Source of the DNA: Chloroflexales bacterium ZM16-3 | GTDB lineage: Bacteria > Chloroflexota > Chloroflexia > Chloroflexales > Chloroflexaceae | DNA length: 64,000 bases | Assembly: GCA_004138175.2 (NCBI GenBank) | Contig: RYFE02000018.1 | Coordinates: 1 to 64,000 of the forward strand | Direction of reading: 5' to 3' | In this document: in pieces, positions 32,047 through 58,003 of the stretch | Layout of the letters: every line of letters begins with the position of its first letter | How positions within the stretch are numbered: the stretch's first letter is position 1 | The notes under the pieces: generated by a model | Seen by the model: the letters and a program-made list of their open reading frames with translations, nothing else | The model's database searches: none | What the model was told of the DNA's origin: nothing | Program-made: the position numbers and the translations under genes

Positions 32047-32072
32047 TAGGGACGCAGCGCGCTGCGTCCCTA
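32047..32072. repeat. TAGGGACGCAGCGCGCTGCG.. palindrome (26 bp) between convergent genes
   Basis: A perfect palindrome centred on GCGCGC, with the outer TAGGG/CCCTA shared with the CTCGCGAG family. The stop codon of the minus-strand regulator lies at its edge (32070). A second copy is at 51030-51061. Confidence 0.85.
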
Positions 32073-35000
32073 CCCCGACACCACATTCTCGCGCCACTGC
32101 TCGCGCACGCGGGCGGCCTCCTGGCTGGCCGCCTCAGCCTCCTCATCCATGCCCTGGGCCGTCGCAAAGCCGGCGATATCCTGGAGGATCTGTGCCTCAA
32201 GCATGCGGGCGCGCATGCTCGCGCTGATCGTCAGGGCGTGCCACGCCCGCCGCTGGGCCTCGTCATAGTCATCCTGGGCCGCGCTGATCGCCGCGAGCTG
32301 CTGGAGCGCGATCGCCTGACCGGTGCGGTCGCCGACGGCCTGGCTGGTGGCCAAGGCGCTGTTGGCCTCGACCATAGCCGCCTTGCTATTGTGCTGGGCC
32401 AGGTACACCCGGCTGATCCCCGCCCGCGCTCGCGTCTCACCGCTCCAGCTGTTGGTCTCGCGGGCCAGGTCGAGCGCCTGTCGGAAGGAGGACATCGCAT
32501 CATTCAGCCGCCCCTGCTGGATCGCCACCTGCCCCAGGTGGTACAGGCAGGTTCCGGCCAGAGTCCGGCTATTGATCCAGCGGTGCGTGTTATGTGTGTC
32601 GGTCTCACCCACCGTGTGCGAGTCGAGACAGATCGTTAGCGCCCGCCGGTGCAGTAGGCGGGCCTGATCGAGGTCGCCCGCCGCCGCGTAGGCCCCGCCG
32701 CGTGCGTCGAGGCTGCCGGCCCGCAGCAGCCGGGCCTGGCGGCGGGCGTCGCCCGTGGCCTGCCGCGCCGCCTGGCGCATACGTAGGTCAACCGACTCGC
32801 TCTGGCTAAGCACCATCTGGTGCATACCGATCGCCACGAGGTAGCAGAGCTGGTAGTAGCTTGCATAGGCCCGCCGCAGCGGGTCATCGAGCTGATCGGC
32901 GATCTCCTCGATGATGCTGATATCCTCTGCCTGGCTCACCTGATTGCCCACCCGCTCGTTGATCATCACTCGCAGCAGCAGCAGGTCGTAGCGCTCGGCC
33001 GGTTCGCTGGTGGCCACCAGGGCCTGCTCGATATAGCGCAGGGCCGCCGGGTTCGAGAAGCGCAGGGCCGCCTGCTCGGCGGCGGCCCTGCAGTAGCGGG
33101 CCTGGCGCTGCCACTCCTCGGCCCGGCGCAGGTGCGAGATCAGCACATCGTACACCGCCATTGCCGCTCGCCCAGTCGCCAGATCCGTCGCGTAGATACC
33201 TTCGTACCAGCTCGCCACCGCCGTGTGTAGCTGGCGACGCTGTCCGAACAGCAGGCTAGTGTAGGCGACCTCGTGGGTGATCCCGTACTTAAAGCGGTAG
33301 ACCGGCTCGGGGTCCTCAAGCTCCAGCTCGATGATCTTCAGGTTGATCAGCGTGTCGAGCTGGGCCAGCAGATCCCGGTCGCCCGGTCGCGCCGGGTGGA
33401 TCATCGCCAGCAGCCGGAAGGGGAAGCTGCGCCCGATCACCGCCGCAGCCTTCAGGGTCAGCCGGGTCGGCTCATCGAGGCGATCCACGCGAGCCTGGAT
33501 GACACCCTGCGCCGAGTTGGAGACCTGCACCGTCACCGGGCTCTCCACAAGGTGGGCCACGCCATCCTCGATAGCGATCAGGTTGTTCTGCCCCAGCACC
33601 CGCAGGTACTCTTTGATAAACAGCGGCTGGCCCTCGGTCTGCCGCTCGACGTGCTGGCGCAGCTCGGGCTGCACGTCGCTCACGCCGAGCAGCGCGCGGA
33701 TCAGCTCGACGCTCTGCTCGCTGGTGAGTCGCCCCAGGGTGACCCGCGTCGTGCTGGGGTTTGCCCGCAGTCGTAGCAGCGACTCTGGTGCCTCCCCGTC
33801 GAGCGGTCTGTGCGAAAGGGTCAGGCAGAGCGGGAAGGGACGGTCGGGCGGGGCCGCCCGGAGGAGGTGAGATGCCAGCTGGAGCGAGAGATCGTCGGCC
33901 CAGTGGACATCCTCAAGGACGATCAGCAGTGGGGCGATGGTGAGCTGCACGCTGATCAGGGATACCGCCAGGTCGATCAGTTGCGCCGGCTCATCGGGGT
34001 CGCCCGTGCCTGCGGAGCCGTCGCCGCCTGCCTCCTCGACCATCCCGAGGGCGCGGGCGAGGGCCTGCCTGGCCTGGGTGCCGATCTGCGGCACCGCCTG
34101 GAGCGCCTGGGCGAGCTGGGCGCGCTGCACCTTCAGGCTGGCGCCCTCGTCGATCCCGCAGATGTCGGTCAGGATCGGTCGCCATGCGAGCAGCGGCACG
34201 CTCTGGCCGCCGCTGCTGCACTCGCTGCTGTAGCCTCGGTAGCCGCGCTCTATCCACTGGGCGGCCAGATCTTGCAGCACAAAGCTCTTGCCAATCCCCG
34301 ACTCACCCTCCAGCAAGATCACGCTCGGCCGCCCGCCGACCGCCCGCTCAGCGGCTGCGGCCAGCGCCTTGCGCTCCTCGGCGCGCCCGATCAGCGCCAC
34401 CGCATCGGGCATGTAGCGCTGGAGGGCCACCCCGCGCCCCACCCGCGCCCCACCCGAGATCACCCGCGCTACCGGCACGCCCTCGCTGTGGCCCTTGGTG
34501 ATCATCAGGCCCGGCTCGGTCGTCTGGTAGCGGCCGAGGATATCCGAGCACACCCGACCCGACACCAGCACCTCGCCGGGCGCCGCGCCATACATCAGGT
34601 GCGCCGCTAGGTTCATATCGTCGCCCTGCGCGGTATAGACCCGGCGCTGCTGGCTTCCCACGGCACCTACGAAGAGGATACCCACCGTCACCGCCGCCCG
34701 GTCGATCAGGCCACGGTCGCGCAGCTCCAGGCAGCAGCCCACCGCCCGGCTGGGGTCGTCGCCGCGGGCCACGGGTGCCCCGAAGAGCATCACGAAGACA
34801 GCGCCCTTATCGCCGACCTCGACCTCATTCAGCCAGCCGCCCCAGCGCAGCACCACGGCCTGGGCCTGGGCAACCAGCCGGTGCAGCTCCTCGGGGCGGC
34901 CGGGCATAGCGAAGGCGGCGAAGGCCGGTACACAGCGTCGATACTCGGCCACCAGGTCGTGGTAGCGCAGCCGCTCGGCGAAGGTGGGCGGCAGAAAATG

Positions 35001-35627
35001 CTCCCAGCTCAGGGTGCTCACCGGCTCAATCGCCGTGATAGTCTGCGTCTCAGCGTCATCGCTGAGGTGCGGCGCCTCATCGACATGGATGGTGCCAGGT
35101 GCGGCCAGCCGCTCGGCCCCAGTCGCCGCGTCCATCGCTGGCCCGCAGATCACGAGGTGCAGCCCGTGGCTGGGCAGCCCCGCCAGCACTACATAGGCCA
35201 TCCCGGCGCTTACCCCGATCCGCAGGTCGAGGCGGAACGGCCCCTGCGGCGTGCTGATTGCGGGCAGCGTGATCAGCGCCGCCACCATGGCCTCGCCGCA
35301 GCGGCGTGCCACATCAATGTCGGTGCGGTCAGGCCACCAGGCGGTCAGGGCATCGCCAGCGATCGCGACCACATCACCGCCATGGGCGATGATCGTGTCG
35401 ATCAGCGCGTCGAAGAACCTGGTGAGCGAGTTGTGCAGGCGCTCGGCACCGTCGGGTAGCCCCGCGAAGGTGGCCGTGAGCCGGGTGAATCCGCTCAGGT
35501 CGGCGTAGAGGATTGTCGCGTTGCAGCGGTGGACGAGCCCCGGCTGAAGCGCTGGCGTGCCGATACGCTCGATCAGCCAGTGCGGGAGGAAGGGGCGTAG
35601 AAATGGGCTCGCCAGATCGTGGTTCAT
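32070..35627 (-). CDS. Adenylate/guanylate cyclase-domain, AAA ATPase and TPR multidomain regulator
   Basis: A 1185-residue protein with four parts. Residues about 35-190: a class III cyclase homology domain with LYADLSGFTRL and GGDVVAIAGDALTAWWPD, both metal-Asp positions present. About 225-385: a second cyclase-like domain (GDKGAVFVMLFG, VGAVGSQQRRVYTAQGDDMNLAAHL). About 405-680: an AAA/NTPase with Walker A LLEGESGIGKSFVL and Walker B LLIVLEDVHWADD. About 840-1185: TPR-like repeats. This is the soluble-adenylyl-cyclase-like/guanylate-cyclase-AAA-TPR plan, common in Chloroflexota and actinobacteria. No DNA-binding domain is seen. Signal and output are unknown. Confidence 0.85.
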   Translation of the reverse strand: MNHDLASPFLRPFLPHWLIERIGTPALQPGLVHRCNATILYADLSGFTRLTATFAGLPDGAERLHNSLTRFFDALIDTIIAHGGDVVAIAGDALTAWWPDRTDIDVARRCGEAMVAALITLPAISTPQGPFRLDLRIGVSAGMAYVVLAGLPSHGLHLVICGPAMDAATGAERLAAPGTIHVDEAPHLSDDAETQTITAIEPVSTLSWEHFLPPTFAERLRYHDLVAEYRRCVPAFAAFAMPGRPEELHRLVAQAQAVVLRWGGWLNEVEVGDKGAVFVMLFGAPVARGDDPSRAVGCCLELRDRGLIDRAAVTVGILFVGAVGSQQRRVYTAQGDDMNLAAHLMYGAAPGEVLVSGRVCSDILGRYQTTEPGLMITKGHSEGVPVARVISGGARVGRGVALQRYMPDAVALIGRAEERKALAAAAERAVGGRPSVILLEGESGIGKSFVLQDLAAQWIERGYRGYSSECSSGGQSVPLLAWRPILTDICGIDEGASLKVQRAQLAQALQAVPQIGTQARQALARALGMVEEAGGDGSAGTGDPDEPAQLIDLAVSLISVQLTIAPLLIVLEDVHWADDLSLQLASHLLRAAPPDRPFPLCLTLSHRPLDGEAPESLLRLRANPSTTRVTLGRLTSEQSVELIRALLGVSDVQPELRQHVERQTEGQPLFIKEYLRVLGQNNLIAIEDGVAHLVESPVTVQVSNSAQGVIQARVDRLDEPTRLTLKAAAVIGRSFPFRLLAMIHPARPGDRDLLAQLDTLINLKIIELELEDPEPVYRFKYGITHEVAYTSLLFGQRRQLHTAVASWYEGIYATDLATGRAAMAVYDVLISHLRRAEEWQRQARYCRAAAEQAALRFSNPAALRYIEQALVATSEPAERYDLLLLRVMINERVGNQVSQAEDISIIEEIADQLDDPLRRAYASYYQLCYLVAIGMHQMVLSQSESVDLRMRQAARQATGDARRQARLLRAGSLDARGGAYAAAGDLDQARLLHRRALTICLDSHTVGETDTHNTHRWINSRTLAGTCLYHLGQVAIQQGRLNDAMSSFRQALDLARETNSWSGETRARAGISRVYLAQHNSKAAMVEANSALATSQAVGDRTGQAIALQQLAAISAAQDDYDEAQRRAWHALTISASMRARMLEAQILQDIAGFATAQGMDEEAEAASQEAARVREQWRENVVSG

Positions 35628-36007: not shown

Positions 36008-38344
36008 GTGAGTGCAGAACGTTTGCAGAAGGTGCTCGCTAGTGCGGGCATCGCGTCCCGTCGCGACTGCGAGGGCCTGATCGCAGCTGGTCGCGTTTCA
36101 GTGAATGGCCGCGTGATCCAGGAGCCCGGCACCCGGGTTGATCTCGATGCGGATGTGGTTGAGGTTGACGGCAAGCCCGTCCGTAAGCCGACGGAGCGCA
36201 CCTACCTGGTGCTGCATAAGCCGGTCGGCTTTGTCTCGACGGTTGATGACCCCCAGGGTCGCCCGACGGTGCTCGATCTGGTTGATGTCCCCGCCCGCGT
36301 CTATCCCGTGGGCCGCCTCGATGTTGATAGCGAGGGCCTTCTCCTGCTCACCGATGATGGCGAGCTGACCCACCAGCTCACCCACCCGCGCTTCGAGATC
36401 GAGAAGGAGTATCGCGCGCTCCTCGACCGCCCGCTCGACTCTGATGCCCTGCGCCAGTGGCGTGAGGGCGTGCTGCTCAACGGTGAGCCGACGGCACCGG
36501 CCTGGGTCGATCTGAGCGAGACGACCGAGGAGGGGCCGTGGTTCCGCGTTGTGCTGCGCGAGGGGCGCAAGCGCCAGATCCGCGAGGTCGCCCGCCTCCT
36601 CGGCTACGAGGTGCAGCGGCTGATCCGCATTCGCGAGGGTGACCTCCATCTTGGCGACCTGCCGCTCCGCCAGTGGCGGCTGCTTACCCCAGAGGAGATC
36701 GCCTCGCTCCACGCCCATGTGGCGTCGCGGCCCCGTGAGGCGACTTCTGCTGCGCAGGTTGAGCGTTCGGCGCGCCCGCGCTCCGAGGGACGCCGCGAGG
36801 ATGCGCGACCTGAGCGCCCGCGCTCCGAGGGACGCCGCGAGGATGCGGGGCCGGATCGCCCGCGCAGCGGTGGGTATGCGCCGCGTCGGGACGAGGGCCA
36901 GGGTGGCGGTGGCTACGGCCCGCGTCGGGACGAGGGCCAGGGCCAGCGATCTCGCACCGGCGGGGTCTATGGTCAGCGTCGGGACGAGGGACAGGGTCAG
37001 GGCGGCGGCGGGTACGGCCCGCGCCGGGACGAGGGCCAGGGCGGACGGGGCGGCTACGGCGGCCCACGTCGGGACGAGGGCCAGGGTGGCGGCGGGTATG
37101 CGCCGCGTCGGGACGAGGGCCAGGGTCCGCGTAGCGGCGGGTATGCGCCGCGCCGGGACGAGGGCCAGGGCGGACGGGGCGGCTACGGCGCCCCGCGCCG
37201 CGACGAGGGCCAGGGACAGCGATCCCGCACCGGCGGGGTCTATGGTCAGCGTCGGGACGAGGGCCAGGGTCAGGGCGGCGGCGGGTACGGCCCGCGTCGG
37301 GACGAGGGCCAGGGCTCGCGTAGCGGCGGGTATGCGCCGCGCCGGGACGAGGGCCAGGGCGGCGGCGGGTACGGCCCGCGCCGGGACGAGGGCCAGGGCG
37401 GCGGCGGGTACGGCCCGCGCCGGGATGAGGGTCAGGGCTCGCGCAGCGGTGGGTATGCGCCGCGCCGGGACGAGGGTCAGGGCGGCGGCGGGTACGGCCC
37501 GCGCCGGGATGAGGGCCAGGGCTCACGCAGCGGTGGCAGCGGTGGGTACGGCCCGCGTCGGGACGAGGGTCAGGGCGGACGAGGCGGCTACGGCGGCCCG
37601 CGCCGGGACGAGGGCCAGGGCTCGCGCAGCGGTGGCAGCGGCGGGTACGGCCCGCGTCGGGACGAGGGTCAGGGCTCGCGCAGCGGTGGCTACGGCCCGC
37701 GCCGGGATGAGGGCCAGGGCTCGCGCAGCGGTGGCAGCGGCGGCTACGGCCCGCGCCGCGACGAGGGCCAGGGCGGGCGATCCCGCACCGGCGGCGTCTA
37801 TGGTCAGCGGCGGGACGAGGGCCAGGGTCAGGGCGGCGGTGGCAGCAACTACGGCCCGCGCCGGGACGAGGGCCAGGGCGGGCGGGGTGGCTACGGCGGC
37901 CCGCGCCGCGACGACAGCCAGAGCCGTCCCATTCGTGAGGGCTATAGCCCCTTCCGCAGCGACCGTGGCCGGAGTGACTCGGACAGCTCATTCGGTCGTG
38001 GACGTGACAATAGCGAGAATCGTGACTCGCGCCCGCGTCGCCCCGACTACGATAACCGCCCGGCCCGCGACGCGGGCGCGCCCCCGCGTACTGATCGTCC
38101 GCGCGCCCAGGATCGCCCTGCGCGCGACGAGCGTATGGATGCGCCGGATCGTCGTCGGGCCGAGGAGCGCCCTGCCCCTGAGCAGCGCGAGCGCCCCGAT
38201 CCCCGTCCGCGTGATACGCCCGCTCCGGAGCGTGCCTCTAGCGTGACGCGTGGTCGAACTGGTGCGGGCGTGTTCCGCCCCCGCCCAGGTGGTCGCCCGA
38301 ACTTCCAGATCCGCCCCCGCGCAAAGAGCGAGGATAAGGAGTAA
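36008..38344 (+). CDS. rluB: RluB-family 23S rRNA pseudouridine synthase with long RRDEGQG-repeat tail
   Basis: Residues 1-60 are an S4 RNA-binding domain (ERLQKVLASAGIASRRDCEGLIAAGRVSVNG). Residues about 65-235 are the RsuA/RluB catalytic domain with the Asp motif PVGRLDVDSEGLLLLTDDGEL and FRVVLREGRKRQIREVARLLGYEV. Family members end near here. This one continues for about 540 residues of low complexity: an Arg/Glu-rich spacer, 22 exact RRDEGQG units spaced by GGYGP, GGYAP or VYGQ (about 288-640), then an Arg/Asp/Pro-rich end. The tail resembles RGG/RG-rich RNA-binding disordered regions. RluB-type enzymes modify the 23S peptidyl-transferase region; target here inferred. Confidence 0.88.
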   Translation: MSAERLQKVLASAGIASRRDCEGLIAAGRVSVNGRVIQEPGTRVDLDADVVEVDGKPVRKPTERTYLVLHKPVGFVSTVDDPQGRPTVLDLVDVPARVYPVGRLDVDSEGLLLLTDDGELTHQLTHPRFEIEKEYRALLDRPLDSDALRQWREGVLLNGEPTAPAWVDLSETTEEGPWFRVVLREGRKRQIREVARLLGYEVQRLIRIREGDLHLGDLPLRQWRLLTPEEIASLHAHVASRPREATSAAQVERSARPRSEGRREDARPERPRSEGRREDAGPDRPRSGGYAPRRDEGQGGGGYGPRRDEGQGQRSRTGGVYGQRRDEGQGQGGGGYGPRRDEGQGGRGGYGGPRRDEGQGGGGYAPRRDEGQGPRSGGYAPRRDEGQGGRGGYGAPRRDEGQGQRSRTGGVYGQRRDEGQGQGGGGYGPRRDEGQGSRSGGYAPRRDEGQGGGGYGPRRDEGQGGGGYGPRRDEGQGSRSGGYAPRRDEGQGGGGYGPRRDEGQGSRSGGSGGYGPRRDEGQGGRGGYGGPRRDEGQGSRSGGSGGYGPRRDEGQGSRSGGYGPRRDEGQGSRSGGSGGYGPRRDEGQGGRSRTGGVYGQRRDEGQGQGGGGSNYGPRRDEGQGGRGGYGGPRRDDSQSRPIREGYSPFRSDRGRSDSDSSFGRGRDNSENRDSRPRRPDYDNRPARDAGAPPRTDRPRAQDRPARDERMDAPDRRRAEERPAPEQRERPDPRPRDTPAPERASSVTRGRTGAGVFRPRPGGRPNFQIRPRAKSEDKE
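36870..37925. repeat. Coding tandem repeat array (RRDEGQG units)
   Basis: Units of about 36-63 bp share CGGGACGAGGGCCAGGG-like cores and encode RRDEGQG followed by Gly/Tyr/Ser spacers. There are 22 exact units and one degenerate (RRDDSQS). The repeat keeps open frames on the other strand too, which are shadows. Length variation between strains is likely. Confidence 0.9.
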
Positions 38345-38360: not shown

Positions 38361-38406
38361 AAAAGGGGTGTGTGGCAGGCTATAAGCTTGCCGCACACCC
38401 CCTTTT
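38361..38406. terminator. Bidirectional terminator between rluB and CoA-binding gene
   Basis: AAAAGGGGTGTGTGGCAGGC pairs with GCTTGCCGCACACCCCCTTTT (cited in part) with A and T runs at the feet. Confidence 0.8.
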
Positions 38407-53904: not shown

Positions 53905-55428
53905 GTGCAGCTTCTGCTCGACGGGCTCCCGCTCGGCGAGGCCGCCGCCATCGATGAGTGGCGCTCGGCCGAGATCTCCTGCCTGTCGCCTGCGGGGGCC
54001 AGCCTGCGCCTGTGGCTGGGCGATCTGGAGCTAGAGCCCTTCCTGCGCCCCGGCGACCCGGCATGGCGCTGGCGTGTCCCGGCCCAGGGCGGCGTCGGCA
54101 GCTTCGCGATCCTGCTGCTCGCCGCGTGGCCCGACGGTCGCGCCGAGGAGCTGCGCGAGATCCTGCGGGTGCGCCCGCGCAAGCTCGACGAGGAGCGCTA
54201 CCGCGCCCTGCTCGACGACCTCCAGCGCCTTGGGCGCGAACTGGTCTTCGCCCTCGGCGGCGGGGCCGCGCCCGGCGGCTGGACGCCCGAGGCTGACGCT
54301 GGCCAGCCCGCGCCCGCCGAGGATCTGGCCGGCCTGCTTGGCCCCGACCTCGACCGATTCCTGGCCGCCGCCGAGCGGATCGCCCTCCGCCCGCCCGACC
54401 GCCTGCGGCCTGGCGTGGATCTCGTAGATCCTGGCCAGTCCCGCGACCTCTCGGCGCTCGACCGGGCGCGCATCGACGCCTCGGCAGCCCCCGGCGAGGC
54501 GGGTGATGCCGCCGCCCTCGCCCGGCGGCTGATAGCTATCCCCGAGCATCGCCCCGCCGCCAGTCACGACTCCTACGAGAACCGGCTGCTCAAGCGCACG
54601 CTGGCCTCCCTCGCCCGGCGGGTGGCTCAGCTTCAGGCGACGCTCGGCCTGCCCGACTCGGCCCGGCGGCGCGTCGCGGATGTCGCCGATCAGCTGCGCG
54701 GCCTGCGGGCGCGGCCCTTCCTCACCGACGTGTCCGCGCTCAGCCAGTTCGCCGGCCCCACCCCACGCCTCCAGCGCGACCCCGACTACCGCGCGGTTTT
54801 CCGCATGTGGCAGCTGCTGCGCCGCCGCCCGCTCATCCAGTGGGACGCGGCGACCCTGGCGATCCCGGTGCAGGATCTGCCCAGACTCTATGAGCGCTGG
54901 TGCGCCGCCAGGGTGGCCCTGGCCCTGCTGCACATGCCCGGCCTGCGCCTTGTCGCGCAGGGTGTGGCGCATCAGGAGGAGGACGACGAGATGGCCTGGG
55001 GGCTGCGTTTGGCCGAGGGCGGCGCGCTGCTAGAGCTGGGGGACACGGCGGGCGCACGGCTGACCCTGCGCTACCAGGCCCGCTACAGGCCCGGCGGCGC
55101 GCCGCTGCGCTCGCTCGACCGGCACACCCGCGTGCCTGACCTAGCCCTGGAGATCGCCCGGCCCGCTGCGCCGCCGAGGGTGATTGTGCTCGACGCCAAG
55201 TATCGCCTGGACGCATCCGGCGGCGTGCCCGAGGACGCGCTTGCCGACGCCTACAGCTACCTGGGCAGCATCGGCGCGGCCGACGGCTCGCGGGCCGCCC
55301 TGGCCGTGGCGCTGCTCTACCCCGGACGAGGCGCGGCTGAGGTCTACGCGAGCGGCGCGGCCGCCCTGCCCCTGCTCCCCGGCGAGGATGGCGAGCTGGC
55401 GGGGTGGATCACTGAGGCACTGAGGTGA
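53905..55428 (+). CDS. DUF2357 / PD-(D/E)XK nuclease, McrC-like, without an McrB partner
   Basis: 507 residues. The N-terminal half is a DUF2357-like domain (LGEAAAIDEWRSAEISCLSPAGASLRLWLG). The segment SHDSYENRLLKRTLASLARRVAQL is the helical linker typical of DUF2357/McrC-like proteins. The C-terminal half ends in a PD-(D/E)XK nuclease: TRVPDLALEIARP then VIVLDAKYRL, followed by DALADAYSYLGSIG. McrC-like chains cut DNA with a GTPase McrB, but none lies upstream (the DHS gene) or downstream. GTG start at 53905 follows GGGAGG. The last codons (ITEALR) lie in the start of a CACTGAGG repeat. Confidence 0.8.
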   Translation: MQLLLDGLPLGEAAAIDEWRSAEISCLSPAGASLRLWLGDLELEPFLRPGDPAWRWRVPAQGGVGSFAILLLAAWPDGRAEELREILRVRPRKLDEERYRALLDDLQRLGRELVFALGGGAAPGGWTPEADAGQPAPAEDLAGLLGPDLDRFLAAAERIALRPPDRLRPGVDLVDPGQSRDLSALDRARIDASAAPGEAGDAAALARRLIAIPEHRPAASHDSYENRLLKRTLASLARRVAQLQATLGLPDSARRRVADVADQLRGLRARPFLTDVSALSQFAGPTPRLQRDPDYRAVFRMWQLLRRRPLIQWDAATLAIPVQDLPRLYERWCAARVALALLHMPGLRLVAQGVAHQEEDDEMAWGLRLAEGGALLELGDTAGARLTLRYQARYRPGGAPLRSLDRHTRVPDLALEIARPAAPPRVIVLDAKYRLDASGGVPEDALADAYSYLGSIGAADGSRAALAVALLYPGRGAAEVYASGAAALPLLPGEDGELAGWITEALR

Positions 55429-55497
55429 TGAGGCACTGAGGCGCTGAGGATGTGAGTGATTCAGTGACTCAGTGATTCCGCGCCTCAGTGATGGGAG
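55407..55497. repeat. Inverted cluster of CACTGAGG octamers
   Basis: ATCACTGAGGCACTGAGG and further copies are followed by GTGATTCAGTGACTCAGTG and GCCTCAGTGA in inverse, giving a possible hairpin. The first copy overlaps the end of the nuclease gene. Confidence 0.8.
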
Positions 55498-55557
55498 ATG
55501 GGTGAAGACCTACAAACACCTTACCGCAGGCTGAGGATCTGTTCTGCCTATCAATGC

Positions 55558-55627
55558 TATAATCAGACCAGCGGATCGGCACACCGCTGCGCACCGCCAT
55601 CCTGTCTGCACCTGCGGAGATCTCTCG
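55558..55627 (+). promoter_or_regulatory. Extended -10 promoter and leader shared with the 58067 gene
   Basis: TGCTATAAT with TATAAT at 55558-55563. The leader GCACCGCCATCCTGTCTGCA..CTGCGGAGATCTC (55595-55626, cited in part) is nearly the same as 58031-58064 ahead of the paralogous gene, including GGAG as the ribosome-binding site. The duplicated unit thus includes its own promoter. Confidence 0.65.
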
Positions 55628-57272
55628 GTGAACGACGACCCCGCCGCCCATCTCGTTGTCCTGCGCGCCCGGCGCGATACGACAACCGACCCGGCGCTGT
55701 GTGCCGCCCTTGATCTGGCGATTGCTGCGCTGGAGGCCACCATCGTATCGGCGCGTGACATCGCCACCGGCGGCGGCGACTACGCCGAGGGCACGGTTGA
55801 TAAGCGCAATGGCGCGTTCCTCGGGCCGGTGGCTGGGCCGCTGCATCAGCACTTCTACTCCCCCGGCGCGGCACCCGCCGGTACGCCCGCTCCGCCCCCG
55901 GCGTTTGTCGCCGCCGAGGTGAGCCAGCTTCGCCAGCAGGCGCTGTTTGCCTACCACTCGCGGGACTGGGTGACGGCGGCGGATCTGCTGGCGCGGCTGC
56001 TTGAGCGCGACCCCGCCGATACCGCTGCGGTCGGCTGGCTCGACGAAGCCCGCCGCAACCTGCGCCTGCACGACCGCTATGCGGTCGCGCGGCGGCTGCG
56101 CCAGGCCGACGAGTGGCAAGCCACGCTTAGTACGCTCGACGAGCTCGCCGCCGCGCAGCCAGCCTACCCCGACCCCGACGGGCTGCGGGCCTGGGTCGAG
56201 GCCGAGCGCTTGCGAGCGCTCTGGGAGCCGCGCTTTGGCCCGGCCTACGCCCAGGTTGCCGGCGGGCACTACGCCGAGGCGCTGCGTGTGCTTACCGCGC
56301 ACCTGGCGGCGAACCATGCCGACCAGGCCGCGCTGCGTGCGACGGCGCACATGATCGAGGATACCACCCTCGCCATCCCCGCCCGCGAGCGCGTGGCCTG
56401 TGGCGCGATCCTGGCCTGCTACAGCGACCCGCGGCGGCAGCTTTGTTGTTGGGTTCAGCGCAGCGGAGATAGCAAAACTTCCGAAGTACGAGCAACAGTA
56501 CTTCTCAAACACCAAGAACGAACGTGCGCTGACCATCCCCGCCTTCGATCTGGCCCGCTACCCGGTCACGAATGCCCAGTATGCGCTGTTTATGAAGGCC
56601 GCTGGCTACGATCCAAGCAAGCCCTGGTGGGACGACGCGTCCCGCGCATGGCTGGCCCGCGACGATGCGGCCACTAAGGGGCTGGAGGCTTGGCAGCGCC
56701 GGGACTTCAAAGATAGGCCCGAGTTCTGGGATGACCCGACCTTCGGGATTGCGCACCCAAACCACCCAGTGGTGGGGGTCAACTGGTACGAGGCGATGGC
56801 CTTCTGCCGCTGGCTGAGCGAGACACCCGAGTATAACCCGGAGGGATTCACCTACGCGCTGCCCAGCGAGGCCGAGTGGGAGTGCGCGGCGCGTGGTCTG
56901 CAACGGCGCATGTATCCCTGGGGAAATGACGAGCTAGACAGCGAGCGGGGCAGCTACGGTCAGACCTACGGTGTTACCACGCTGGCGGTGGGCTGCTTCC
57001 CGCGCGGGGCCACGCCGGAGGGGGTGCTTGATCTGGCGGGGAATGTCTGGGAGTGGACGCGCAGCGCGTATCAGCCCTACCCCTACGACCCGGCCGACGG
57101 GCGCGAGCGCGGCAGCGACCCGGCGGGAAAACGCTTTACACTTCGCGGCGGCTCGTGGTTTGATCGGACGATCGTCCTGCGCGGTTCCTCCCGCGGTCGA
57201 AATTCGCCCGACAACCACAATCAGAATGTTGGTTTTCGGCTTCTCCGGCGCCCTCCTAGTGCAAAGAATTAA
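55628..57272 (+). pseudogene. N-terminal-module + TPR-like + FGE-sulfatase (SUMF1) protein, frameshifted
   Basis: Two reading frames make one protein. Frame 1 (GTG 55628 to about 56430): a 37-residue helical module (MNDDPAAHLVVLRARRDTTTD-ALCAALDLAIAALEA), GGGDYAEGTVDKRNGAF, a Pro linker and TPR-like helices, ending RVACGAILACYSDPR. Frame 2 (about 56433-57272) resumes GSFVVGFSAAEIAKLPKYEQQYF and the FGE-sulfatase domain (FDLARYPVTNAQYALFMKAAGYD, ALPSEAEWECAARG, GNVWEWTRSAY, TLRGGSW). The join near DPRR/GSF lacks the usual short PGVGL-DIxWVEVPxG stretch, so a small deletion shifted the frame, or the assembly has an error there. The end (SSRGRNSPDNHNQNVGFRLL) resembles variable regions of diversity-generating retroelement targets. 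Confidence 0.75.
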
Positions 57273-57333
57273 TTACGTGTCCTGCGTCCTGTGTCCCGGC
57301 GTCAGTAGAGCCATGTCGCTGCGGCAAGCTCGG

Positions 57334-57427
57334 AATCACTGAGGCACTGAGATGATGAGACACTGAGGGTATGAACCGCCTCAGTGATTCAGTGATTCAG
57401 TGATTCAGTGATTCAGTGATTCAGTGC
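57334..57427. repeat. Inverted cluster of CACTGAGG / GATTCAGT octamers
   Basis: TCACTGAGGCACTGAGATGATG then CCGCCTCAGTGATTCAGTGA (cited in part) with about five tandem TTCAGTGA copies. The arms are inverted to each other. Confidence 0.8.
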
Positions 57428-57493
57428 TTCGCACCCTCCGCCCCTGCCTGATCGGTGTACTTAGGGAAGCATCGATAGCGCAGGAGTGCCATT

Positions 57494-57892
57494 ATGACTG
57501 GAGCCACAGATCTCCCCTTTGTTGACCCGGCCTACCCGTCCTCCGAGACGACCGGGCAGATCATCGCGGCGGCGCTCGCCGTGCATCGCACGCTGGGTCC
57601 GGGCTTCGAGGAGGTGTTTTACCAGCGTGCGCTCGCCATGGAGTTGCCGGGGTTCGGCCTGGAGTTCGCCCGCGAGGTCTGGATTGATGTGTGCTACAAG
57701 GGGCACATCCTCGGGCGTAAGCGGGTGGACTTTGTGATCGAGGATGTTATGTTGGAGATCAAGGCGCGCGGACAGCTTGAGCCGGTTCACCACGTTCAGG
57801 CGCTCTCCTACCTCAAGGCGTCCGGGTATAAGGTTGGGCTGCTGATCAACTTCGGCGCCGCGCGGCTTGAGATCAAGCGCCTGGCGAATTGA
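57494..57892 (+). CDS. GxxExxY-family protein (PD-(D/E)XK-like)
   Basis: 132 residues. The signature GFEEVFY (GPGFEEVFYQRALAMEL, residues about 35-51) is the motif after which the family is named. DFVIEDVMLEIKARGQL then VHHVQALSYLKASGYKVGLLINFG follows the (D/E)-x-K nuclease-like core (the D of VDFVIED and ExK of EIKARG). Members are small and often lie in accessory DNA; biochemical function is unknown. It sits between inverted octamer clusters, so it is transcribed apart from its neighbours. Confidence 0.85.
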   Translation: MTGATDLPFVDPAYPSSETTGQIIAAALAVHRTLGPGFEEVFYQRALAMELPGFGLEFAREVWIDVCYKGHILGRKRVDFVIEDVMLEIKARGQLEPVHHVQALSYLKASGYKVGLLINFGAARLEIKRLAN

Positions 57893-58002
57893 GCATCACT
57901 GAGGCACTGAGGCACTGAGGCACTGAGGGGGTGAGGGAGTGAATATCCTCAGTGCCTCAGTGCCTCAGTGCCTCAGTGCCTCAGTGCCTCAGTGCCTCAG
58001 TG
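57893..58002. repeat. Inverted octamer cluster (TGAGGCAC) abutting a promoter
   Basis: Four TGAGGCAC copies (57896-57928) face about seven CAGTGCCT copies (57953-58002) over a short loop. The right arm runs straight into TGCTATACT, so it occupies the -35 region of the next gene. Number of units could set expression. Confidence 0.85.
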
Positions 58003-58003
58003 C

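Follow-up and report, generated by a model that had tools for sequence, protein, structure and literature searches.

The window analyzed here is a stretch of 64,000 nucleotides from Chloroflexales bacterium ZM16-3 (contig RYFE02000018.1, positions 1 to 64,000). Positions 36008 to 38344 on the + strand hold a single open reading frame of 778 amino acids (aa), with a GTG start and no internal stops. It encodes a pseudouridine synthase core of about 240 aa followed by a tail of about 535 aa, roughly twice the length of the enzyme. The features of the locus are as follows.

32070 to 35627, - strand: divergent neighbor, 1,185 aa, with cyclase, AAA_16, and TPR domains (domain search)
36008 to 36727, + strand: S4 and PseudoU_synth_2 core, RluB-like (Pfam PF01479 and PF00849, TIGR00093, PDB 4lab, alignment with Escherichia coli RluB; ordered in the structure model)
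36728 to 36883, + strand: start of the tail, a linker and 42-bp repeats of the RPRSEGRREDARPE type (tandem repeats, reading frame)
36884 to 37924, + strand: repeat array of 22 RRDEGQG units and 1 degenerate RRDDSQS unit, with spacers such as GGYGP, SRSGGSGG, and RSRTGGVYGQ (TRF, unit scan)
37925 to 38251, + strand: Arg/Asp/Pro-rich stretch of the tail without RRDEGQG units (translation)
38252 to 38341, + strand: C-terminal tip GRTGAGVFRPRPGGRPNFQIRPRAKSEDKE (tip alignment; recognizable in 4 of 13 aligned relatives)
38365 to 38401, + strand: terminator-like hairpin of 17 pairs, 3' of the stop codon (hairpin scan)

The hairpin is weak by count, because one was found and shuffled sequences gave a mean of 1.0. 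A promoter search at the pseudouridine synthase locus found no sigma-70-like promoter. Two further frames across the array (535 aa on the + strand and 435 aa antisense) were rejected as genes: read in the frame of the core, the 22 exact units differ by synonymous changes only, and the GC content there is 0.75 to 0.82. Among 20 loci of relatives, the pseudouridine synthase gene is adjoined by the cyclase/AAA/TPR gene in 6 and by the convergent neighbor, a CoA-binding gene, in 1. Elsewhere in the window (55410 to 58003), 8-bp tandem repeats (CACTGAGG, TCAGTGAT, and CCTCAGTG) flank a short open stretch near 57494 to 57892, which may resemble GxxExxY-type proteins.

The core was assigned to its family on the basis of domain models and a solved relative. 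Pfam placed the S4 domain at residues 4 to 48 and PseudoU_synth_2 at residues 66 to 193. The protein passed the cutoff of TIGR00093 (RsuA/RluB/RluF pseudouridine synthases; 153.7 bits versus 109.3), and its gene is the only one in the genome above that cutoff. The best-scoring NCBIfam model was RluB (PRK10700 equivalog), at 154.8 bits; because its cutoff of 290 was not reached, we call the enzyme RluB-like rather than RluB. The best solved relative was E. coli RluB (PDB 4lab; E value of 3.3e-42). In the alignment of the two, R103, D105, and Y135 correspond to R108, D110, and Y140 of E. coli RluB (base-flipping Arg, catalytic Asp, and active-site Tyr, respectively), and E130, as read by eye, corresponds to Glu135. 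The latter is described as the RluB-specific bulge-binding position, which is Asp in RluF (PMC3919597). The alignment suggests that the core modifies the equivalent of U2605 of 23S rRNA. A U2605-type target stem-loop was matched exactly in three of five same-genus relatives (G002, G004, and G005), with no exact match in G001, G003, or the ZM16-3 assembly; overall, 7 of 21 genomes were matched, and a reversed control pattern, with up to two mismatches allowed, matched once in G005 and once in G012. The misses are probably due to rRNA being absent from draft assemblies.

The tail (532 aa when counted from residue 247) is a polyampholyte based on Arg, Gly, and Tyr in which the charges are well mixed. 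It consists of 27% G, 21% R, 9% P, 8% D, 7% each of E, Q, and S, and 5% Y, with 25 Tyr and 2 Lys residues. Its charged fraction is 0.36 (the border for strong polyampholytes is 0.35), its net charge is +0.058 per residue, and its kappa value is 0.085. The 22 exact RRDEGQG units lie at protein positions 293 to 624, together with the one RRDDSQS; in 2,000 residue-shuffled tails, the motif occurred at most once per shuffle. The net charge of the unit is zero, since two Arg residues are offset by one Asp and one Glu. A search of the tail against the rest of its own genome gave no further match at an E value of 0.001. In an AlphaFold2 model, ten-residue pLDDT means were 80 to 96 over residues 1 to 240 and 33 to 53 beyond; values below 50 were assigned to 515 residues, almost all of them tail residues. 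The tail is thus predicted to be unstructured, in agreement with its composition; the model itself is weak evidence for disorder, because most of the tail was covered solely by this protein's own row in an alignment of 14 rows.

Variation among the repeats indicates that the tail sequence is constrained as protein. Across the 22 RRDEGQG units, 5 of 21 nucleotide columns were variable, all of them third codon positions, and all pairwise differences (426 of 426) fell on such positions. The chance of five random columns all being third positions is 0.001, a value that serves as a guide only, because the units were chosen by peptide and are of common ancestry. A translation-blind scan for DNA similarity (up to 7 mismatches per 21, counting in-frame matches) placed 31 of 45 mismatches in this tail, and 449 of 638 in 14 tails, at codon position 3; 10 out-of-frame matches (1 in L067, 5 in L070, and 4 in L019) were not counted. 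Two of the 14 tails had more nonsynonymous than synonymous unit changes (L019, 10 versus 7; L038, 33 versus 21), and the units of L083 showed zero changes. The tip VFRPRPGGRPNFQIRPR was recognizable in four aligned relatives (L065, L066, L067, and L031) and not in the nine others, so the frame is kept to the end at least in near genera.

These results can be set against a preliminary description of the same DNA, which had reported an rRNA-type pseudouridine synthase with a core of about 235 residues, a longer Arg/Gly/Tyr-rich tail of about 540 residues, and 22 RRDEGQG units. That picture was borne out, down to the unit count, and the tail is also constrained at the protein level. The interval given (36700 to 38344) starts about 30 bases inside the core of a gene that begins at 36008. 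The term "RGG-like" is loose: RGG occurs four times and RG seven times, no two RGG triplets are spaced by 0 to 4 residues (the definition of an RGG box), so the tail contains no RGG box, and its unit is charge neutral.

To see how widely such tails occur, relatives were compared at the levels of order and phylum. The core was matched in 38 of 41 near genomes (G001, G010, and G027 had no match, and G007, G021, G022, and G037 had fragments only; none of these are among the 44 loci below) and in 278 of 301 phylum genomes. A full core is present in 44 order loci (L001 to L044), and 42 of them extend at least 54 residues past it, a count that includes L002 (an N-run in the tail, then an apparent other frame) and L015 (a 99-aa tail and an apparent run into another gene). 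Tails whose end is intact and that contain no N-run (L015 excluded) measured 152 to 578 aa. Two loci, L023 and L024, end at most 7 residues past the core. In L023, another open frame lies immediately 3' of the stop; in L048 (Chloroflexaceae bacterium), which equals L024 in core identity and tail end, no tail remnant was visible 3' of the stop. L023 (G011) is labeled as the same family, and its tail-less core falls outside the group formed by the rest of the order; its contig is possibly misbinned.

By comparison of locus lengths with coordinates, 13 of the 44 loci end at a contig end within the tail; because assemblies break there, unit copy numbers are uncertain. The existence of the tail is not an artifact, because four genomes of one contig each (G030, G141, G157, and G255) carry tails of 386, 287, 182, and 326 aa, respectively. 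Misassembly was accordingly rejected as the origin of the tail and retained as a concern for exact copy number. In L015 and L002, the tail repeats themselves seem to cause misassembly.

Outside the order, the median open frame among the 123 matches listed was 284 aa, versus 554.5 aa in 44 order genomes, a rough comparison because open frames include upstream reading (in G341, a frame of 751 aa versus a tail of 84 aa). Long frames are not restricted to the order, since 7 of these 123 reach at least 450 aa. Among 16 Myxococcota loci, 9 have tails of at least 450 aa and 7 have tails of at most 88 aa, one of the latter being cut short. The nine long-tailed loci (L088, L111, L114, L115, and L117 to L121) share the core, the tail length, and the net charge (+0.05 to +0.09); they differ in forming a separate clade and in their units, which contain Gly, Phe, and Lys (e.g., GGDSKPRF in L088). 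In a tree of 75 cores, rooted by midpoint only, a single starred branch united 41 long-tailed and 2 short-tailed rows and did not include L023, and the 9 long-tailed Myxococcota rows formed a second clade. Four changes of tail state were counted (three forced by starred branches), versus 21.2 with shuffled labels. The simplest reading of this tree would be two gains and a few losses. The preliminary description had called the tail unusual and had proposed a comparison of tail lengths; the comparison among relatives revealed tails that are long in most of the order and variable in length, and the tail is therefore not singular.

Repeat units turn over between genera, as seen in 22 tails. RRDEGQG is common to the near relatives L002, L003, and L004; in L005, also of this genus, the unit is RRDEGRGGYGAP. 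The tails of other genera are built from different units (PPRREGGYREER, RPQRSFGDRPQRDER, and GERGREFEREPRARRDS), and little clear repetition is seen in the tails of L016 and L025. Charge varies less. For 34 tails from 17 genera (truncated tails included, L002 and L015 excluded, and X letters dropped in L072), net charge per residue was +0.067 (standard deviation, 0.025; range, -0.009 to +0.117). On genus means, the acidic fraction increases with the basic one (r = 0.57), and net charge was as tight in 85 of 10,000 permutations of genus means, with kinship above the genus left in. In 15 of 15 tails, opposite charges were mixed more evenly than in shuffled versions (z between -0.9 and -5.2); kappa, with its maximum approximated, was 0.037 to 0.144. 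The Gly/Tyr-rich makeup is not general: over the 34 tails, Gly makes up 7 to 31% and aromatics make up 0.5 to 9%. The tail is probably useful, because most order relatives carry one, with other repeats and a similar charge balance.

We propose, with a probability of about one-half, that the gene encodes an RluB-type 23S rRNA pseudouridine synthase whose C terminus has expanded into a disordered, RNA-tethering arm of about 535 residues that acts near immature 23S rRNA. The starting point may have been a short, disordered, basic C terminus, as in E. coli RluB. In that enzyme, the C-terminal 40 residues were removed for crystallization, and they are described as predicted to be disordered and poorly conserved (PMC3919597); they contain 9 R, 4 K, and 5 G. 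E. coli RluB (the 23S rRNA Psi2605 synthase) shares with the present protein the S4 domain, the catalytic core with its Arg, Asp, and Tyr, and a basic, Gly-containing C terminus predicted to be disordered. Its tail of about 40 aa differs from that here, which is far longer and repetitive, with acidic residues that offset most of the Arg. In the lineage studied here, the arm would engage RNA through numerous weak contacts (of Arg with phosphate and of Arg and Tyr with bases), and its acidic residues would keep it soluble, extended, and fast to exchange. It could thereby tether the enzyme to 50S particles that are nascent or still immature, raising its effective concentration there. Such an arm would demand composition and length rather than an exact sequence, so the unit would be free to drift and to be reamplified lineage by lineage. 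Points against this tether are the absence of the tail in L023 and L024, a tip recognizable in only 4 of 13 relatives, the nonsynonymous excess in L019 and L038, and the limited generality of the Gly/Tyr makeup. A strong role of the RluB enzyme is also disfavored, because its reexpression in E. coli without 10 modification enzymes is reported to have had no significant effect on growth (PMC11194073).

The KKE/D tail of yeast Cbf5 offers a parallel. This tail promotes efficient modification and a buildup of the enzyme close to nascent rRNA, with in vitro activity reported as unaffected (PMC11528048). Cbf5/dyskerin likewise makes pseudouridine in rRNA and ends in a disordered polyampholyte tail that is highly charged and net positive; unlike the enzyme here, it is the catalytic part of guide-RNA snoRNPs (PMC11528048). 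The KKE/D tail is Lys based, 92 aa long in yeast, and has kappa values of 0.1 to 0.4 (PMC11528048), whereas the present tail is built on Arg, Gly, and Tyr, is far longer, and has a kappa value of 0.085. Thus, the charged fraction and positive net charge of KKE/D-type tails are found here, and the richness in Lys and the kappa range are not. Cbf5 is the closest precedent in working principle, with no kinship implied. RGG/GAR domains (FUS, Nop1, and Gar1) are low-complexity regions rich in Arg, Gly, and aromatics. The tail resembles them in these respects and differs in its four RGG triplets only, its many acidic residues, and its near-balanced charge.

A different role for the same composition, already raised in the preliminary description, would be that of a condensate scaffold, in which Arg and Tyr stickers with Gly spacers phase separate with rRNA into ribosome assembly foci, perhaps depending on growth state. 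The 25 Tyr residues, the 21% Arg, the Gly spacers, the valence afforded by 22 near-identical units, and the presence of aromatics in all 34 tails (0.5 to 8.9%) would suit such a scaffold. The charge pattern does not: the even mixing in 15 of 15 tails does not favor self-association through charge blocks, kappa is below 0.1 in 11 of the 15, outside the range of 0.1 to 0.4 to which self-association is tied (PMC11528048), and an RGG box is absent. We therefore consider a scaffold unlikely.

The tail may instead be neutral baggage, produced when slippage expanded GC-rich repeats at a disordered C terminus that tolerated them, with a composition that is a by-product of GC-rich DNA and with little for the tail to do. 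Mismatches that fall mostly at third codon positions are hard to reconcile with this idea, as are a net charge tighter than chance pairing, the even charge mixing in 15 of 15 tails, the concentration of 41 long-tailed rows among 43 in one clade, and a search of the genome in which the tail had no further match at an E value of 0.001. It would account for a unit that differs between genera, for the spread in length from 152 to 578 aa, for an array GC content of up to 0.82, for the two tail-less order loci, and for the mostly nonsynonymous unit changes in L019 and L038. On balance, we regard a tail of no consequence as improbable.

Arg-rich tails also occur on a second protein of the same genome. 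A DEAD-box helicase (L128, positions 1429 to 2760), among the top two by score in this genome, has a C-terminal tail of 64 aa with RRDDRPSP-type repeats. A search for helicase loci at an E value of 1e-80 matched 32 of 41 genomes; 17 loci were examined, and 15 were compared (G037 and G012 were dropped). Helicase tails were 43 to 89 aa in 15 of the 17 loci, and Arg made up at least 14% in 16 of 17 (the remaining one has an N-run). Arg-rich ends are thus found on this helicase as well, and the giant tail is on the pseudouridine synthase. The idea that the two tails of one genome share a vocabulary was rejected: likeness within genomes was 0.053 versus 0.048 between genomes (15 genomes, with the G004 tail taken only up to its N-run), and 2,821 of 10,000 permutations were as high. 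An arm that links the enzyme to rRNA transcription or folding by binding protein (RNA polymerase, ribosomal proteins, or this Arg-rich-tailed helicase) would gain from the helicase tails, but it is very unlikely given that tail vocabularies are not matched within genomes above the between-genome level.

If the arm is indeed an RNA tether that targets nascent rRNA, bacteria would have arrived on their own at a strategy known from eukaryotes; lysine-rich snoRNP tails are described as absent from archaea (PMC11528048). Among the open-license papers listed in literature searches, none had a title concerned with long tails of bacterial pseudouridine synthases. A broader proposal, which we consider quite doubtful, is that bacteria evolved, probably repeatedly, a counterpart of eukaryotic nucleolar targeting tails, in which a giant arm, drifting in sequence but steady in charge balance, would concentrate pseudouridine synthases on nascent rRNA in a nucleolus-like assembly zone of cells that lack a nucleus. 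The order provides a natural series of differing tails on one core, which suits tests of which property of a disordered region is selected.
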